Below are positions 57,488-64,000 of a DNA stretch of 64,000 bases, piece by piece. Under the pieces are notes generated by a model. The model did not search any database. It was not told the DNA's origin and saw nothing but the letters and a program-made list of their open reading frames with translations. The stretch spans positions 496,001 through 560,000 of the forward strand of contig NZ_CP016619.1 of assembly GCF_002741015.1 (NCBI RefSeq), in the 5' to 3' direction. Every line of letters starts with the position of its first letter. Position 1 is the first letter of the stretch. The DNA is from Microvirga ossetica. GTDB taxonomy: Bacteria; Pseudomonadota; Alphaproteobacteria; Rhizobiales; Beijerinckiaceae. Both the position numbers and the translations under genes were made by a program.

Positions 57488-57910
57488 GGCACTCCGGGAT
57501 TTGATGCCAATGGCTGTCGACACCCGGGCTCTCGGACTGTTCCATAAGGGCACTTCTGTTCATTGTGCGGTCCCATGTGTGTTGTTAGGATCAGGAAACC
57601 AGCCCTTCGGGAAGCTGCCCTTCGGGTGCCGTTACACGCGCGATCTCGCCTCTGCTCGGTCGGGCCGTCTTGGACCCGATGCCCTCAAACCGATGGACCC
57701 GGTCAGCAGCAGCCGGTGCCCTTACAACAGAGGCGGGTCCAGTCGGCCAGCATTATCTTCGGGCTGGGCCCTGAAAGGTGCTATGATGCTCTTGCTGGGT
57801 GAGGACGTCGCGTCATGGCTGCCGGTGCTCCTAATTCTGGCGGATTCCTAATCCGTCCTCATTAGCCACACAGAATTTGGACGACTTCCTCCCCTTTGAG
57901 GGAGGCTAAA
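57488..57910. other. Intergenic region upstream of aapJ-like gene
   Basis: About 420 bases; open frames on the plus strand show no similarity and no ribosome-binding site. GC-rich inverted segments such as CCCTTCGGGAAGCTGCCCTTCGGG near 57602 are present. The aapJ-like promoter should be in the last 100 bases. Confidence 0.4.
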
Positions 57911-59005
57911 ATGGTACTTCAAAGCAACCTGTCACAGGCACAGATCCAGACCTCTGACGATCCTCGTCGTAGTCGATCCAACACCGTGAAAAAGGCTCTT
58001 GTGTCGATTGCCTTCGGCCTGACAGCTAGCCTGTTTGCCACGGGCGCCTCGGCCCAGGCGACGCTCAATAGTGTGAAGCAGAAGGGCTTCCTGACCTGCG
58101 GCTCGAACAATGGCCTTGCCGGCTTCGGCTTGCCCGACACGCAGGGCAATTGGACGGGCCTCGACGTCGAGTTCTGCCGCGCCATTGCGGCTGCCATCTT
58201 CGACGACTCGACCAAGGTTCGCTTCATCCCGCTCGCCGCCAAGGACCGCTTCACGGCGCTCCAGTCGGGCGAAGTGGACGTGCTGTCCCGTAACTCGACC
58301 GCGACCATGTCGCGCGATACGCAGCTCGGCCTCGACTTCCCGGCGGTTACCTACTTCGACGGCCAGGGCTTTATGGTCCGCAAGAAACTTGGCGTTGCCT
58401 CCGCTAAGGAGATGAACGGCGCCTCGATCTGCACTCAGCAGGGCACCACGACCGAGCTGAACCTCGCCGACTTCTTCCGTGGCAACAACATGAAGTACGA
58501 AGTGGTGGCTTTCGCGACCTCGGACGAGACGTTCAAGGCCTACGATTCCGGCCGCTGCGACGCCTACACGACGGATGCTTCCGGCCTCTATGCCGAGCGC
58601 CTGCGCGCGTCGGCGCCCGATGAGCAAGTGGTGCTGCCTGAGATCATCTCCAAGGAGCCCCTTGGCCCGGCCGTCCGCCACGGCGACAACCAGTGGGCCG
58701 ACATCGTCCGCTGGACCCACAATGCCATGCTGAACGCTGAAGAACTCGGCGTGACCAAGGCCAATGTCGACCAGATGAAGACCTCCGAGAACCCGGAGAT
58801 CAAGCGTCTCCTCGGCACGGAGGGCAAGTTCGGTGAGGCCACCGGCCTGCCCAACGACTGGGCCGTGCGCATCATCAAGCATGTGGGCAACTACGGTGAG
58901 AGCTTTGACCGGAATGTCGGCGAGGGATCGCGCCTGAAGATCAAGCGCGGTCAGAACGCCCTGTGGAGCAAGGGAGGGCTCCAGTATGGCATTCCGGTCC
59001 GTTGA
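57911..59005 (+). CDS. General L-amino acid ABC transporter binding protein (AapJ-like), orphan
   Basis: 364 residues from ATG 57911 behind GAGGGAGG; a GTG at 57986 directly before the signal peptide is an alternative start. Signal: KKALVSIAFGLTASLFATGASA. Family-3 binding protein of the AapJ/BztA branch: FLTCGSNNGLAGFGLPDTQGNW, GLDVEFCRAIAAAIFDD, DVLSRNSTATMSRDTQLGLDF, CDAYTTDASGLYAERL, EPLGPAVRHGDNQW. Length fits AapJ (about 340). The usual aapQMP permease and ATPase genes do not follow, so it must work with components encoded elsewhere or serve another role. Confidence 0.88.
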   Translation: MVLQSNLSQAQIQTSDDPRRSRSNTVKKALVSIAFGLTASLFATGASAQATLNSVKQKGFLTCGSNNGLAGFGLPDTQGNWTGLDVEFCRAIAAAIFDDSTKVRFIPLAAKDRFTALQSGEVDVLSRNSTATMSRDTQLGLDFPAVTYFDGQGFMVRKKLGVASAKEMNGASICTQQGTTTELNLADFFRGNNMKYEVVAFATSDETFKAYDSGRCDAYTTDASGLYAERLRASAPDEQVVLPEIISKEPLGPAVRHGDNQWADIVRWTHNAMLNAEELGVTKANVDQMKTSENPEIKRLLGTEGKFGEATGLPNDWAVRIIKHVGNYGESFDRNVGEGSRLKIKRGQNALWSKGGLQYGIPVR

Positions 59006-60062: not shown

Positions 60063-60380
60063 TCACGCTTGAAATGGCTTGGGCGTAAATGGCGAGCGCT
60101 CCACCAGTAGGATCCTGGCGGCCACGCCGAGCGACCGTAGCTCATCGAGAATTCTCTGCATCTGCTCGGATTCCTGCGCTTTGCGGGCATCCTCCACAGT
60201 ACGGAACTCCAGCATGGTGATCGTGTTCGGGCTGGCTCCATCAGTCGTACGATAGGCCATAAACGACACCGCACCCGGGATTTGCAGAAGCTGCGCGATC
60301 CAATCTCTGACATGCTGGTTGTAGTCGTTCCAGCGATGAGACTCGGTCGGGCGGTCATACTGAAACATGACATAGGCCAT
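60063..60380 (-). CDS. Small dimeric alpha/beta-barrel-like protein
   Basis: 105 residues from ATG 60380 with GGGAGG upstream. YVMFQYDRPTESHRWNDYN, IPGAVSFMAYRTTDGASPNTITMLEF, VEDARKAQESEQMQRILDELRSLG: the beta-alpha-beta pattern of ABM/EthD-like dimeric ferredoxin-fold proteins. Many such proteins bind hydrophobic substrates or heme, but no active site is evident. Function unknown. Monocistronic. Confidence 0.65.
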   Translation of the reverse strand: MAYVMFQYDRPTESHRWNDYNQHVRDWIAQLLQIPGAVSFMAYRTTDGASPNTITMLEFRTVEDARKAQESEQMQRILDELRSLGVAARILLVERSPFTPKPFQA

Positions 60381-60483: not shown

Positions 60484-61485
60484 TTAGTCGGAGCGACGAT
60501 CGCTCTTGAGTTCATTGGTGTTGATCACGCGCGCCAAGAGGTCTTGCAGGGTCTCCCGCTCCCGTTCCGACAGGGCAGCCATCACGCGATCCCGCACCGC
60601 AAGGATCGCCGGGTATAACCGTGCATAGAGTTCGAGCCCTTCTGGTGAGAGGCTGAGAAGGCGCAGGTCGCGTCCGTGTTTCCCCGGTGTCCGGCTGACG
60701 AACCCTAGAAGCTCAAGGTGCTTGACCATCCGCTGGGCACTGGCGAGGTCAATGCCGATCCGCTCGGCCAATCGCCGCTCGTCGATGTTCGGCGCATCGT
60801 GGAGGGAGGCCAGAACCGCAGGTTCGACCAGTGTCAGGCCCTCTTGATTGGTCACGTCCACCAGCGCGCGGTTCAGGATGGTATGGAAGCGTCGCCCCAG
60901 ATTGAATTCACTGCGGCGGTGAACCGGTGGCAGCGCCCGAGACAGCGGGTGATCAGTGGGATGGGCCAGATAAGCCCGTATGGGCGCATCCAGGTTTTTC
61001 ACGAGTTGCGTCCCGAGGTCGTCGAAGGCCAGCGGCAGCACCCTGGACACGTAGTCATAGGCCATTCCTGAGAGGCAGACCAATCCCGGCTGTGCCAGCT
61101 TCTCCATGCGGGCGGCAATGTTCACCCCATCACCAAACATGTCGCCGTCGCGGACCATAACCTCTCCAACGTGGATGCCGATCCGGAAGGTCACCCGGCG
61201 CTCCTCTGGGGTTTCCTCATTTGCCGCAGCAATCCTTTCCTGAACGCCGACCGCACATAGGACCGCGTCAACGACGCTTGGGAACTCAGCGAGAATACTG
61301 TCGCCTGCGGTGTTGGCTGTGCGACCGCCGTACTGGGTGATGTGCCGATCCATGATCTCACGGCGCGAGTCGAGCAGGCAGAGGGTCCCCGCCTCATCCG
61401 CGTTCATCAGGCGCACGTAGCCTGCCACGTCAGCGTAGAAGATCGCTGCGAGGCGGCGTTGCATGACTGAGGCGCGCTTGTTCAT
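60484..61485 (-). CDS. Class III adenylate/guanylate cyclase fused to a MarR-type DNA-binding domain
   Basis: 333 residues from ATG 61485 (KRASVMQRRLAAIFYADVAGY, the standard opening of rhizobial class III cyclases); longer frames upstream are not protein-like. Cyclase domain, residues about 10-180: metal Asp D19 in FYADVAGY, metal Asp D62 in NTAGDSILAEF, and the N122/R126 pair in DGVNIAARMEKL. The Lys seen in many adenylate cyclases is Thr here, as in several rhizobial homologues. Residues about 200-330 are a MarR winged helix: LGRRFHTILNRALVDVTNQEG, NIDERRLAERIGIDLASAQRMVKHLELLGFVSRTPG, RDLRLLSLSPEGLEL. A cyclase linked directly to a transcription regulator is unusual. Cyclic nucleotide made may act locally, or ATP/GTP may gate DNA binding; both are inference. 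Confidence 0.88.
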   Translation of the reverse strand: MNKRASVMQRRLAAIFYADVAGYVRLMNADEAGTLCLLDSRREIMDRHITQYGGRTANTAGDSILAEFPSVVDAVLCAVGVQERIAAANEETPEERRVTFRIGIHVGEVMVRDGDMFGDGVNIAARMEKLAQPGLVCLSGMAYDYVSRVLPLAFDDLGTQLVKNLDAPIRAYLAHPTDHPLSRALPPVHRRSEFNLGRRFHTILNRALVDVTNQEGLTLVEPAVLASLHDAPNIDERRLAERIGIDLASAQRMVKHLELLGFVSRTPGKHGRDLRLLSLSPEGLELYARLYPAILAVRDRVMAALSERERETLQDLLARVINTNELKSDRRSD

Positions 61486-61640: not shown

Positions 61641-61724
61641 TCACCCGTGGGAGCGGATCGTCAGCGTGCAAACGGCGAGAATGCCAGCCATCAGGAGGAG
61701 TGAAATCAACACTTGGGAAAGCAT
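61641..61724 (-). CDS. Micro-protein, 27 residues, single membrane segment
   Basis: ATG 61724 overlaps the stop of the upstream micro-ORF (TGATG), so translation is probably coupled. Product LSQVLISLLLMAGILAVCTL then TIRSHG: one hydrophobic helix with a basic tail. Function unknown; such tiny proteins often stabilise membrane enzymes. Confidence 0.5.
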   Translation of the reverse strand: MLSQVLISLLLMAGILAVCTLTIRSHG

Positions 61725-61828
61725 CACATGACCCCCAAGATCACGGCCCCGCAGAACAGGAAGGCCATGGCCGCAACAACGAGCGCCTCGTTTTCGTAAG
61801 AAATGTAGGACCTGATTCTCTGAACCAT
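61724..61828 (-). CDS. Micro-protein, 34 residues, single membrane segment
   Basis: ATG 61828 is preceded by a perfect AGGAGG at seven bases, one of the best ribosome-binding sites in the window. Product: VQRIRSYISYENEALVVAAM then AFLFCGAVILGVM: an amphipathic start and one membrane helix. A TATACT box lies about 20-25 bases upstream of the AGGAGG. No family recognised. Forms a two-gene unit with the next ORF. Confidence 0.6.
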   Translation of the reverse strand: MVQRIRSYISYENEALVVAAMAFLFCGAVILGVM

Positions 61829-61881
61829 GATGTCCTCCTAAATTAATTGAAGTATACACGCTTATTCGACCTAAACCGCGT

Positions 61882-62750
61882 CTATTTTGGGAACCGTAGT
61901 TCTTCCTCCTTGGGGTCGAGCTGATCCTTGACCCAGAGGCGATCGGCCAGGGCGCATGGATCCGTGTTGATGCGGGTTTCGAAAGCGGCGACGCGTCGGG
62001 TGAGATCTTCAGGGCTGCTGTGGCAGTGGTGATAGGTGACGTCCTCGCGCAGCCAGCGCCAGAGCGCCTCCACGGGCATCAGGTCAGGGCTGTAGCTGGG
62101 TAAGGGCACAAGCGCGATGTTCAGATCGGAGGCCTCCGCCCGGACCGCCTGGGCGCGATGGTAGGGCGCTCCATCCCACAGCAGAATGATCTTGCGGTCG
62201 GACACCTCGGCCCGCAGCCGACGCAGCACCTCGATCGTGTGCTCTCCGTTGGCGCGGGCATAGGGCCACAGCCGGACCTCGCCCTCGTTGTAGAGATAGA
62301 GACCATAGAACGACACCTTGGCCGAGAGCCCGGGCGAGCAGGAGGCCACCCACAGCCGCTGGCCGCGGGCGCACCAGCCATAACCAAGATCGGTGTCTTG
62401 GTGAAGGTGAGCCTCATCAAGATAGACTAGGAGGTGGCGGTCGCGTTGGGCGCCGGCCAGCAGGTCCGGGAGGCGATCGATGAAAGCCCGTCGTTGCTCC
62501 GGATCCGCGCGGCCGAGCAGCTTTTTGGCCTTCTTCCACGACAGCGCGAGGCGGTGCAGGGCCGCCCGGATGGTCTCGCGACAGACGCTGAGACCAAAGC
62601 GCTCGCGCACGAACGCCACCAGGCGCTTGAGGGTGAAGCGAGGCGGCGGATCGGCGCCGTCTACGGGCGGCGCGGCCGCCGCACCCTGGGCCGCGCGCAC
62701 GACCTCGCCGAGACTGGCGGCGGTTCGGGCACAAAGGGGGGACGGCCGCC
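61882..62750 (-). CDS. IS630-family transposase, catalytic (orfB) part
   Basis: Protein-like from about 62750 (ASLGEVVRAAQGA) to the stop at 61882. Contains RFTLKRLVAFVRERFGLSVCRETIRAALHRL and KKAKKLLGRADPEQRRAFI before the DDE blocks. It has no own good start; it is most likely made by frameshift from orfA. Confidence 0.75.
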
Positions 62751-62996
62751 GGTGCGGCCATAGGCCAGGGCCGCGGGGCCCTGTGTGTGGTAGGCATGCA
62801 GCCAACCCATCACGGTCTGCGGGTGGCGCCCGGTGCGTGCCGCCACCTGGGTGGCGCAGCTTCCTTGAGCCATGTCGTAGAGGGCGAGCGCGCGCTCGCG
62901 GGTGCGCGCATGAGGTGCGTTTAGCGCCAGCCGCCGCAGGTCATCCGGTGTTTGACCCCAGCGTGCACAATCAACCCGTAGCATGACGCCACCCAT
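62661..62996 (-). CDS. IS630-family transposase, DNA-binding (orfA) part
   Basis: 111 residues. Two helix-turn-helix motifs in the first 75 residues, ending with AYHTQGPAALAYGRTGGRPP. After that point the frame leaves the family pattern, so the natural product probably shifts into orfB here. Confidence 0.72.
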   Translation of the reverse strand: MGGVMLRVDCARWGQTPDDLRRLALNAPHARTRERALALYDMAQGSCATQVAARTGRHPQTVMGWLHAYHTQGPAALAYGRTGGRPPFVPEPPPVSARSCARPRVRRPRRP

Positions 62997-63440
62997 ATCT
63001 GAGGAAAGTGCCTCAGATGGGAACGCCCGCCGCTAATCCAAGCCCAAAACCATGGTTCTCAAACTGGATGCAGTTTAAGTATATGATTGTCTCGAAACAT
63101 GAATTATTCGATAGGGTCGGAGAGAGTTGGCAAGCTATGGGCGCAATCCAAGAGATTAGAAACTTGGGAAGCGGATCACTATGCTTCTCTGATCCTCCTG
63201 AGTCTTGCGTGTATCATGTGTACAGCGGGATCCGATTATGGACTTGGCAATCAGGCAGCCGCCGCCCGGCATTCTGAAGAGCGGCACGGGTCTCGGTGTA
63301 CAAGAGAAGGTTGTCTTGATCACCTTGGGATACGCCACATCACCTTGGGATATGCCACGTGCGCGAACGGCAAAGCTCCTCCGGCTTCTAAGGCTAGAGG
63401 AGACTGCAACCTCCGATCAGAGTGACAGCGGAGGGTGCTT
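62997..63440. other. Intergenic region with a small tandem duplication
   Basis: About 440 bases without a credible gene. Contains ATCACCTTGGGATACGCCAC at 63319-63338 repeated immediately at 63339-63358 with one change. Just right of the IS630 orfA start (63000-63020) there is TCTGAGG...CCTCAGA symmetry, perhaps an element end. Confidence 0.45.
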
Positions 63441-64000
63441 ATGGACGAGGTGACTCAACTCGCCCGGCAGTTGCTGGACAGCGGCGTAACAAGACTGTCT
63501 GAGCGCGAGCAGCGGGTAATTCTCCACATCGCCAAGCGATCGCATATCGCCCGAAATGTGAACAGCGTTCTTGAAGAACAGCAGACATTGGGCGAACGCC
63601 TCGCGGATCGGGTCGCTCAATTTGGGGGATCCTGGACCTTCATCACGATCTTCACGGGGATGCTCATGGCTTGGATCGTCCTGAACAGCGTTGCCCTGGC
63701 CCGCGTCGGCGGAGGCTTTGATCCATACCCCTACATTTTCCTGAACCTGATCCTGTCGATGGTTGCCGCGCTACAAGCCCCTGTGATCCTGATGTCTCAG
63801 AACCGACAAGCCGCCAGGGATCGGTTGGCCGCCAGCTTGGATTACGAGGTCAACTTGAAGGCGGAGGTTGAGATCATGGCCCTACACGACAAGCTTGACC
63901 GCATTCGCGTCGAGCATCTCGAAGGCTTGCTTCAGGATCAGACGCAGCGGGTTGAGGAGCTAGACAAGATGGTGCGGGCAACCCTCGCTAAGCCACTATC
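63441..64000 (+). CDS. DUF1003-family membrane protein, C-terminus cut by window edge
   Basis: 186 codons visible from ATG 63441 with GGAGGG upstream. N-terminal helical part (LARQLLDSGVTRLSEREQRVILHIAKRSHI), then GERLADRVAQFGGSWTFITIF with two membrane segments: FITIFTGMLMAWIVLNSVAL and FLNLILSMVAALQAPVILM. The SQNRQAARDRLAASLDYEVNLKAE block is the DUF1003 signature, followed by a coiled-coil-like tail (LDRIRVEHLEGLLQDQTQRV). Function not established. Likely inner membrane. Family length about 170-200, so little is missing. Confidence 0.88.
   Translation, partial: MDEVTQLARQLLDSGVTRLSEREQRVILHIAKRSHIARNVNSVLEEQQTLGERLADRVAQFGGSWTFITIFTGMLMAWIVLNSVALARVGGGFDPYPYIFLNLILSMVAALQAPVILMSQNRQAARDRLAASLDYEVNLKAEVEIMALHDKLDRIRVEHLEGLLQDQTQRVEELDKMVRATLAKPL

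Follow-up and report, generated by a model that had tools for sequence, protein, structure and literature searches.

What does a MarR-type domain do when it is joined directly to a class III nucleotide cyclase? The question is raised by a gene in a window of 64,000 nucleotides from Microvirga ossetica (NZ_CP016619.1, positions 496,001 to 560,000 of the forward strand). The first-pass annotation of this DNA described an uninterrupted 333-residue frame in which a cyclase domain is followed by a MarR-type winged helix, and proposed a one-protein switch in which nucleotide binding, or cAMP made at the DNA, changes gene expression.

Architecture of the fusion protein

The uninterrupted frame was borne out, and its parts are as follows.

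60484..61485, minus strand: cyclase-MarR fusion gene, one open frame of 333 aa
60952..61464, minus strand: class III nucleotide cyclase domain, residues 8-178, with D19, N58, D62, D115, N122, and R126
60511..60927, minus strand: MarR-fold domain, residues 187-325
Parts of the MarR-fold domain: alpha1 (H189, R198/R199), recognition helix 247-259, wing 263-279, alpha5, and alpha6

A complete MarR fold lies directly C-terminal to the cyclase within this single chain. In an alignment of 76 members (the window protein and 75 chosen from the best 120 matches listed), the Pfam family PF00211 (Guanylate_cyc) was matched by all 76 and MarR by 72 (E 1e-3), which confirms the direct link and the MarR assignment of the C-terminal domain, whose failure in a profile search had been named as a possible objection. 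No LuxR/GerE model was present among the 19 Pfam families matched by these members at E 1e-3. The mean column entropy of the fusion alignment was 0.84 bits in the cyclase vs 1.47 bits in the MarR part. Some members have been named "class 3 adenylate cyclase/DNA-binding MarR family transcriptional regulator" by JGI, indicating that annotation pipelines also see the cyclase and MarR pair. The full-length structure model had a pTM of 0.57, and the arrangement of the two domains is therefore not predicted.

Family, distribution, and phylogeny

A protein search gave 6815 matches at E <= 1e-3 among 7998 scored candidates. The best 120 of these 6815 matches are 57-94% identical to the query, and 115 of the 120 cover at least 90% of it. 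Genome records matched along most of the protein include those of Microvirga species, Phyllobacterium brassicacearum, and Sinorhizobium fredii, and one labelled Mycobacterium sp. KBS0706. The record with the last title (L022, NZ_VCCH02000065.1) carries a 63% identical fusion together with a DUF1003 gene, and may reflect a wrong label or a transfer. A frameshift, assembly, or single-strain artefact, a concern raised in the first-pass annotation, was rejected, since copies at 54-94% identity occur in independent records and the genome itself holds a second full-length copy.

Within the genus, 22 matches to a model of the MarR half were found in 16 of the 48 genomes (E <= 1e-15). In a sample of 397 genomes of the order, matches at E <= 1e-28 were confined to the M. 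ossetica genome and one other, the latter with two frames of 171-174 aa that are too short for the fusion. Because no more than nine candidates were scored for each genome in the samples of the class and the order, these searches may have missed a fusion. A tblastn search with the window's cyclase (E 1e-3) detected no cyclase in 10 stretches taken from the class-sample hits outside the M. ossetica genome and picked mostly for long frames. The spread is thus patchy, covering part of the genus, a few rhizobia, and many metagenome proteins. Decayed copies also occur, with a broken frame and internal stop (L027/L132), a truncated MarR half (L017/L148), or only a remnant (L150); the patchy family and these several copies together give the fusion an accessory-looking role. 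At one M. pakistanensis locus (L023:5001-5879), a deletion runs the fusion gene into the DUF1330 gene and removes most of the MarR part.

In the tree of the cyclase domain, a branch with 100/100 support parts the 76 fusions from 67 non-fusion cyclases, a result that is supportive and not proof, as the two sets were collected differently. In the tree of the MarR half, 69 of the 70 stand-alone proteins split off at 100/98, the remaining one (P0219) being a long branch of unsure placement; all fusions formed one group with a support of only 30/0 (28% of bootstrap trees). A single origin of the fusion is the simplest reading of these sequences, on which the cyclase tree is firm and the MarR tree weak.

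The cyclase half

The cyclase half is intact by sequence. As the first-pass annotation had noted, it has both metal-binding aspartates (D19 and D62, each in 76/76 fusions) and the transition-state pair, N122 (76/76) and R126 (73/76). The purine-site pair, Asn58/Asp115, is likewise present in all 76 members. This pair has been tied to the preference for ATP or GTP (PMC4215837), and the usual ATP-specifying pair is Lys/Asp. The product is likely to be cAMP, and since the pair here is Asn/Asp and not Lys/Asp, cGMP is possible beside it. The same Asn occurs in seven of the eight non-fusion cyclases examined from the M. ossetica genome, the eighth being unreadable in the frame used, and the alignment also places an Asn at the Lys position in Rv1900c, a solved cyclase. 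The class III cyclase fold was recovered for this half, with Rv1900c and 3mr7 among the best fold matches.

The nearest relatives of the cyclase half are N-terminal cyclases of Microvirga and rhizobia, which are up to 65% identical to it. Approximately 400 further residues follow the cyclase in 61 of the 67 non-fusion cyclases examined, so that the MarR domain occupies the place of their C-terminal regions. The M. ossetica genome is very rich in related class III cyclases: 85 stretches match the fusion protein at E <= 1e-3, some of them pieces of one gene, and 84 of the 85 overlap the cyclase half.

The MarR half and its predicted ligand pocket

Both a MarR profile match and the MarR fold were found for the C-terminal half. 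We compared 69 fusion MarR halves, seven of the 76 alignment rows having been lost to a length filter, with the 70 nearest stand-alone MarR proteins. The latter are chosen entries of 150-230 aa from 120 rows, with short pieces and proteins that are probably truncated fusions (among P0121-P0145) left out. Mean pairwise identity was 0.51 in the fusion halves and 0.54 in the stand-alones. Column entropies in fusions and stand-alones, respectively, were 1.48 and 1.35 bits in alpha1, 1.24 and 1.22 in alpha2-3, 1.62 and 1.42 in the recognition helix, 1.54 and 1.65 in alpha5, and 1.10 and 0.91 in alpha6. Of the helices in the fusion MarR half, alpha6 shows the highest conservation, and D299 and R319 do not vary wherever they are aligned.

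R198 is present in 68 of 69 fusions and 70 of 70 stand-alones, and R199 in 69 of 69 and 68 of 70. H189 is invariant in the fusions (69/69) and is not conserved in the stand-alone MarRs. The best PDB sequence match of this half is PcaV (E 1e-19), whose LARRL segment aligns with R198/R199. We take PcaV R15, the alpha1 arginine aligned with R198/R199, to be its key ligand residue. Named MarR families near the MarR half include PcaV, Saro_0803, and HpaR, which are regulators of or by aromatics, although the NCBIfam equivalog cut-offs were missed (Saro_0803, 37.4 bits vs 200; HpaR, 32.4 vs 121.2). The SlyA and OhrR models also match, more weakly. Published work describes PcaV as an aromatic-linked MarR regulator (PMC4737184, PMC5487221) whose winged helices are rotated against the dimer helices by the ligand (PMC4737184), and Saro_0803 as a resveratrol-linked one (PMC10046596).

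The wing and the DNA-binding face

In a solved MarR-DNA complex, the arginine of the wing reaches into the minor groove, with an Asp two residues before it holding it in position (PMC3737563), and a review calls this arginine essential for DNA binding by MarR (PMC6018408). The D-x-R motif is in register in none of the 69 fusions vs 69 of the 70 stand-alones; in thinned sets the counts are 0/34 vs 21/22 and 0/18 vs 14/15. Wing column entropy is 2.36 bits in the fusions vs 1.07 in the stand-alones. A D-x-R lies elsewhere in the wing of 12 of the 69 fusions, including the window protein, where D273-x-R275 is two positions out of register. P0106 has a DRR one position out of register, and the genomic members L024 and L026 also have DRR.

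Other features of this face are basic. The recognition helix has a mean charge of +2.46 in the fusions vs -0.54 in the stand-alones, with R252 (window protein numbering) in 63 of 69 fusions. The wing remains positively charged, although less so (+2.20 vs +3.57), and an arginine falls at positions 271-275 in 64 of 69 fusions. Given the basic recognition helix, the basic wing, and this arginine, the DNA-binding face of the MarR half may persist. A broad claim that DNA binding has been lost was set aside in view of the remaining basic residues and of the shifted D-x-R in some members. The proposed union of a cyclase with a working transcription factor therefore holds in part: the apparently intact cyclase, the MarR fold, and the direct link stand, whereas the in-register wing motif of a canonical DNA binder is missing. 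The same is true of the DNA-bound switch, with which the basic recognition helix and the arginine at 271-275 would be compatible, while the retention of the arginines aligned with the PcaV pocket alongside the loss of the in-register D-x-R speaks against it.

Operon and upstream region

The surroundings of the fusion gene contain the following features.

61724..61828, minus strand: sORF1, hydrophobic micro-protein of 34 aa, AGGAGG before its start
61641..61724, minus strand: sORF2, hydrophobic micro-protein of 27 aa, start overlapping the sORF1 stop
60063..60380, minus strand: DUF1330 protein of 105 aa, downstream (PF07045, 27.5 bits, cut-off 23)
63441..64000, plus strand: DUF1003 gene, divergent, running off the window (PF06210, 129.5 bits)
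57896-59005, plus strand: gene for a family 3 extracellular solute-binding protein (SBP_bac_3, Pfam)
61850..61859, minus strand: promoter-like GTGTATACTT box just before the sORF1 ribosome-binding site
61874..63075, minus strand: IS630-type insertion with a DDE_3 transposase (Pfam and end inspection)
63092..63111, minus strand: near-palindrome TCGAATAATTCATGTTTCGA, weak candidate local operator on the far side of the insertion

In the closest clade, the genes for two putative micro-membrane proteins, the fusion, and the DUF1330 protein appear to form a conserved operon: sORF1 and sORF2 are open in 12 of the 12 closest loci (the window, L113-L122, and L132), and DUF1330 lies downstream in all 12. 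Among nine sequences, pN/pS was 0.20 for sORF1, 0.39 for sORF2, 0.15 for the fusion, and 0.19 for DUF1330, the last from 22 of 36 pairs owing to length differences. sORF1 has no Pfam match, and sORF2 matches FixS below threshold only. Among the 22 genus matches to the fusion tail, DUF1330 is directly downstream in 13, and sORF1 is upstream in 14 of the 21 loci read for it (all but G029:C6); the other seven, L123-L129, lack both micro-proteins and DUF1330. Across the genus, sORF1 was matched 37 times in a total of 21 of 48 genomes, whether or not the fusion is present, and at 20 sORF1 loci read that lack the fusion, DUF1330 stands behind sORF1 in 12 and sORF2 in 15. Since the sORF1 operon is also found without the fusion, the fusion gene sits within an otherwise separate small operon.

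The DUF1003 gene lies upstream in divergent orientation both in the window and in L113-L120. At these nine DUF1003-linked loci, the arms of the near-palindrome (TCGAA-N10-TTCGA) are exact in five, have one mismatch in three, and have three mismatches in one; in the M. ossetica genome, the sequence was found at 63092..63111 only, with up to two mismatches allowed. In L121, L122, L132, L148, and L150, the arms have 3-4 mismatches, and the near-palindrome is kept as a weak candidate for a conserved target near the gene. The promoter-like boxes were rejected as a fusion-specific operator, as GTATACT occupies this position in 13 of 14 loci that carry the fusion and in 11 of 20 sORF1 loci that lack it.

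The IS630-type element is flanked by TA on both sides (61872-61873 and 63076-63077), and its terminal 22 bases are alike at 17 of 22 positions. By visual comparison with relatives, it splits the conserved upstream region of the operon in the window strain, with the upstream box on one side and the operon start on the other. Its transposase gene has the same direction as the operon and could alter expression in this strain.

Proposed mechanism and alternative explanations

The reading that we favor, with less than firm confidence, is a soluble class III cyclase that carries a MarR-derived dimer as its C-terminal regulatory domain. We think that the MarR dimer would serve mainly as a ligand sensor for the cyclase, with DNA binding lost or altered. 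Its basis is the pattern of conservation, namely a conserved cyclase site and a complete MarR fold in which the dimer helices and the PcaV-aligned arginines are kept and the in-register D-x-R is lost. The protein would be a homodimer through both domains, and a small ligand, probably aromatic or otherwise anionic, would sit between the alpha1 dimer region and the winged helices. Binding would move the winged helices as in PcaV, and the motion, passed to the cyclase dimer, would open or close the cyclase; the main output would be cAMP, or possibly cGMP. In the closest clade, the two micro-membrane proteins and the DUF1330 protein would be co-expressed partners or targets. The fuller form of this proposal, which we put forward tentatively and with considerable doubt, is that the MarR domain kept its dimer and ligand pocket, gave up the canonical DNA grip, and gates the cyclase, so that a (phenolic) signal of the sort that ordinarily derepresses one operon becomes a diffusible second messenger, and that in Microvirga this unit has become part of an operon together with two micro-membrane proteins and DUF1330.

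The main rival makes DNA the partner of the MarR half, which would bind an operator, for which the near-palindrome lying between DUF1003 and sORF1 is a candidate, while nucleotide state or local cAMP alters expression of the operon and DUF1003. The retained MarR fold and dimer helices, the basic recognition helix (with R252) and wing, and a near-palindrome in a divergent intergenic region, exact in both arms at five of nine loci and the sole such site in its genome, are all consistent with this switch. However, the canonical wing D-x-R is out of register or absent in every one of the 69 fusions, the near-palindrome is unrecognizable in relatives at 79-82% (L121 and L122) and in L132, L148, and L150, the promoter-like boxes are common to operons without the fusion, and L123-L129 carry the fusion without the micro-proteins and DUF1330. 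On balance, we regard the DNA switch as doubtful, though a serious contender.

Class III cyclases need dimers, and the MarR half could accordingly be a dimerization scaffold that holds two cyclase domains together, with neither ligand nor DNA. The strong conservation of alpha6, with its invariant D299 and R319, fits such a role, but a scaffold alone would not explain the near-invariant R198/R199 and H189 or the kept helix-turn-helix, and we judge it unlikely. It is most improbable that the cyclase half is a dead nucleotide-binding sensor controlling a working MarR regulator: the architecture and the replacement of the purine-site Lys by Asn would suit this arrangement, yet the residues for metal binding and for the transition state persist (all of them in 76 of 76 except R126, in 73), and the same Asn is found in seven of the eight non-fusion cyclases examined from this genome and in Rv1900c.

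If the ligand-sensor reading is true, a DNA-binding one-component regulator has been turned into the input domain of an enzyme that makes a second messenger, and the protein would be a small, soluble, and probably ligand-gated cyclase that could be used as a biosensor. The genome has dozens of related stretches of cyclase, among which the MarR-type member may offer a convenient starting point, because PcaV-like regulators allow a guess at its ligand class.

Comparison with known systems

Proteins that pair a cyclase with an HTH are already known, since a cyclase + LuxR (CHD+LuxR) subfamily has been published for actinobacteria (PMC3466318). The first-pass statement that class III cyclases usually carry sensor domains or TPR repeats was thus incomplete, and its remark that no described example was known holds for the MarR version, which was not found in the literature searched, and not for cyclase-HTH fusions at large. 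A cyclase-MarR fusion is named in no title or abstract opening found in open-licence PubMed Central, outside which most subscription papers lie. A 2023 review of MarR proteins (PMC10458429) contains no word beginning with "cyclase", and a text portion of 20,587 characters from a paper on actinobacterial cyclases (PMC2447327) has no match to HTH terms.

The CHD+LuxR proteins, such as Rv0386, resemble the fusion in that a single chain carries both a class III cyclase and an HTH of the DNA-binding type. Their HTH is of the LuxR type, whereas the fusion has a complete MarR fold directly after the cyclase within 333 aa. CHD+LuxR proteins also hold an ATPase/TPR middle part. By sequence, the best solved cyclases are the Rv1900c cyclase domain (1ybt/1ybu) and 3mr7 from Silicibacter pomeroyi. 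Rv1900c is a lipase-cyclase by its NCBIfam name, in contrast to the cyclase-MarR pair, and has a His in place of the transition-state Asn (PMC4886424) that is invariant in the fusions. The MarR half has some of its best PDB or NCBIfam matches to the aromatic-responsive MarR regulators PcaV, HpaR, Saro_0803, and HosA, and the alpha1 LARR motif is common to PcaV and the fusion. Unlike the fusion, these four are stand-alone regulators, and PcaV and HosA have the wing D-x-R in the alignments. The N-terminal cyclases of Microvirga and rhizobia differ from the fusion in what follows the catalytic domain, their long C-terminal regions standing where the fusion has MarR.
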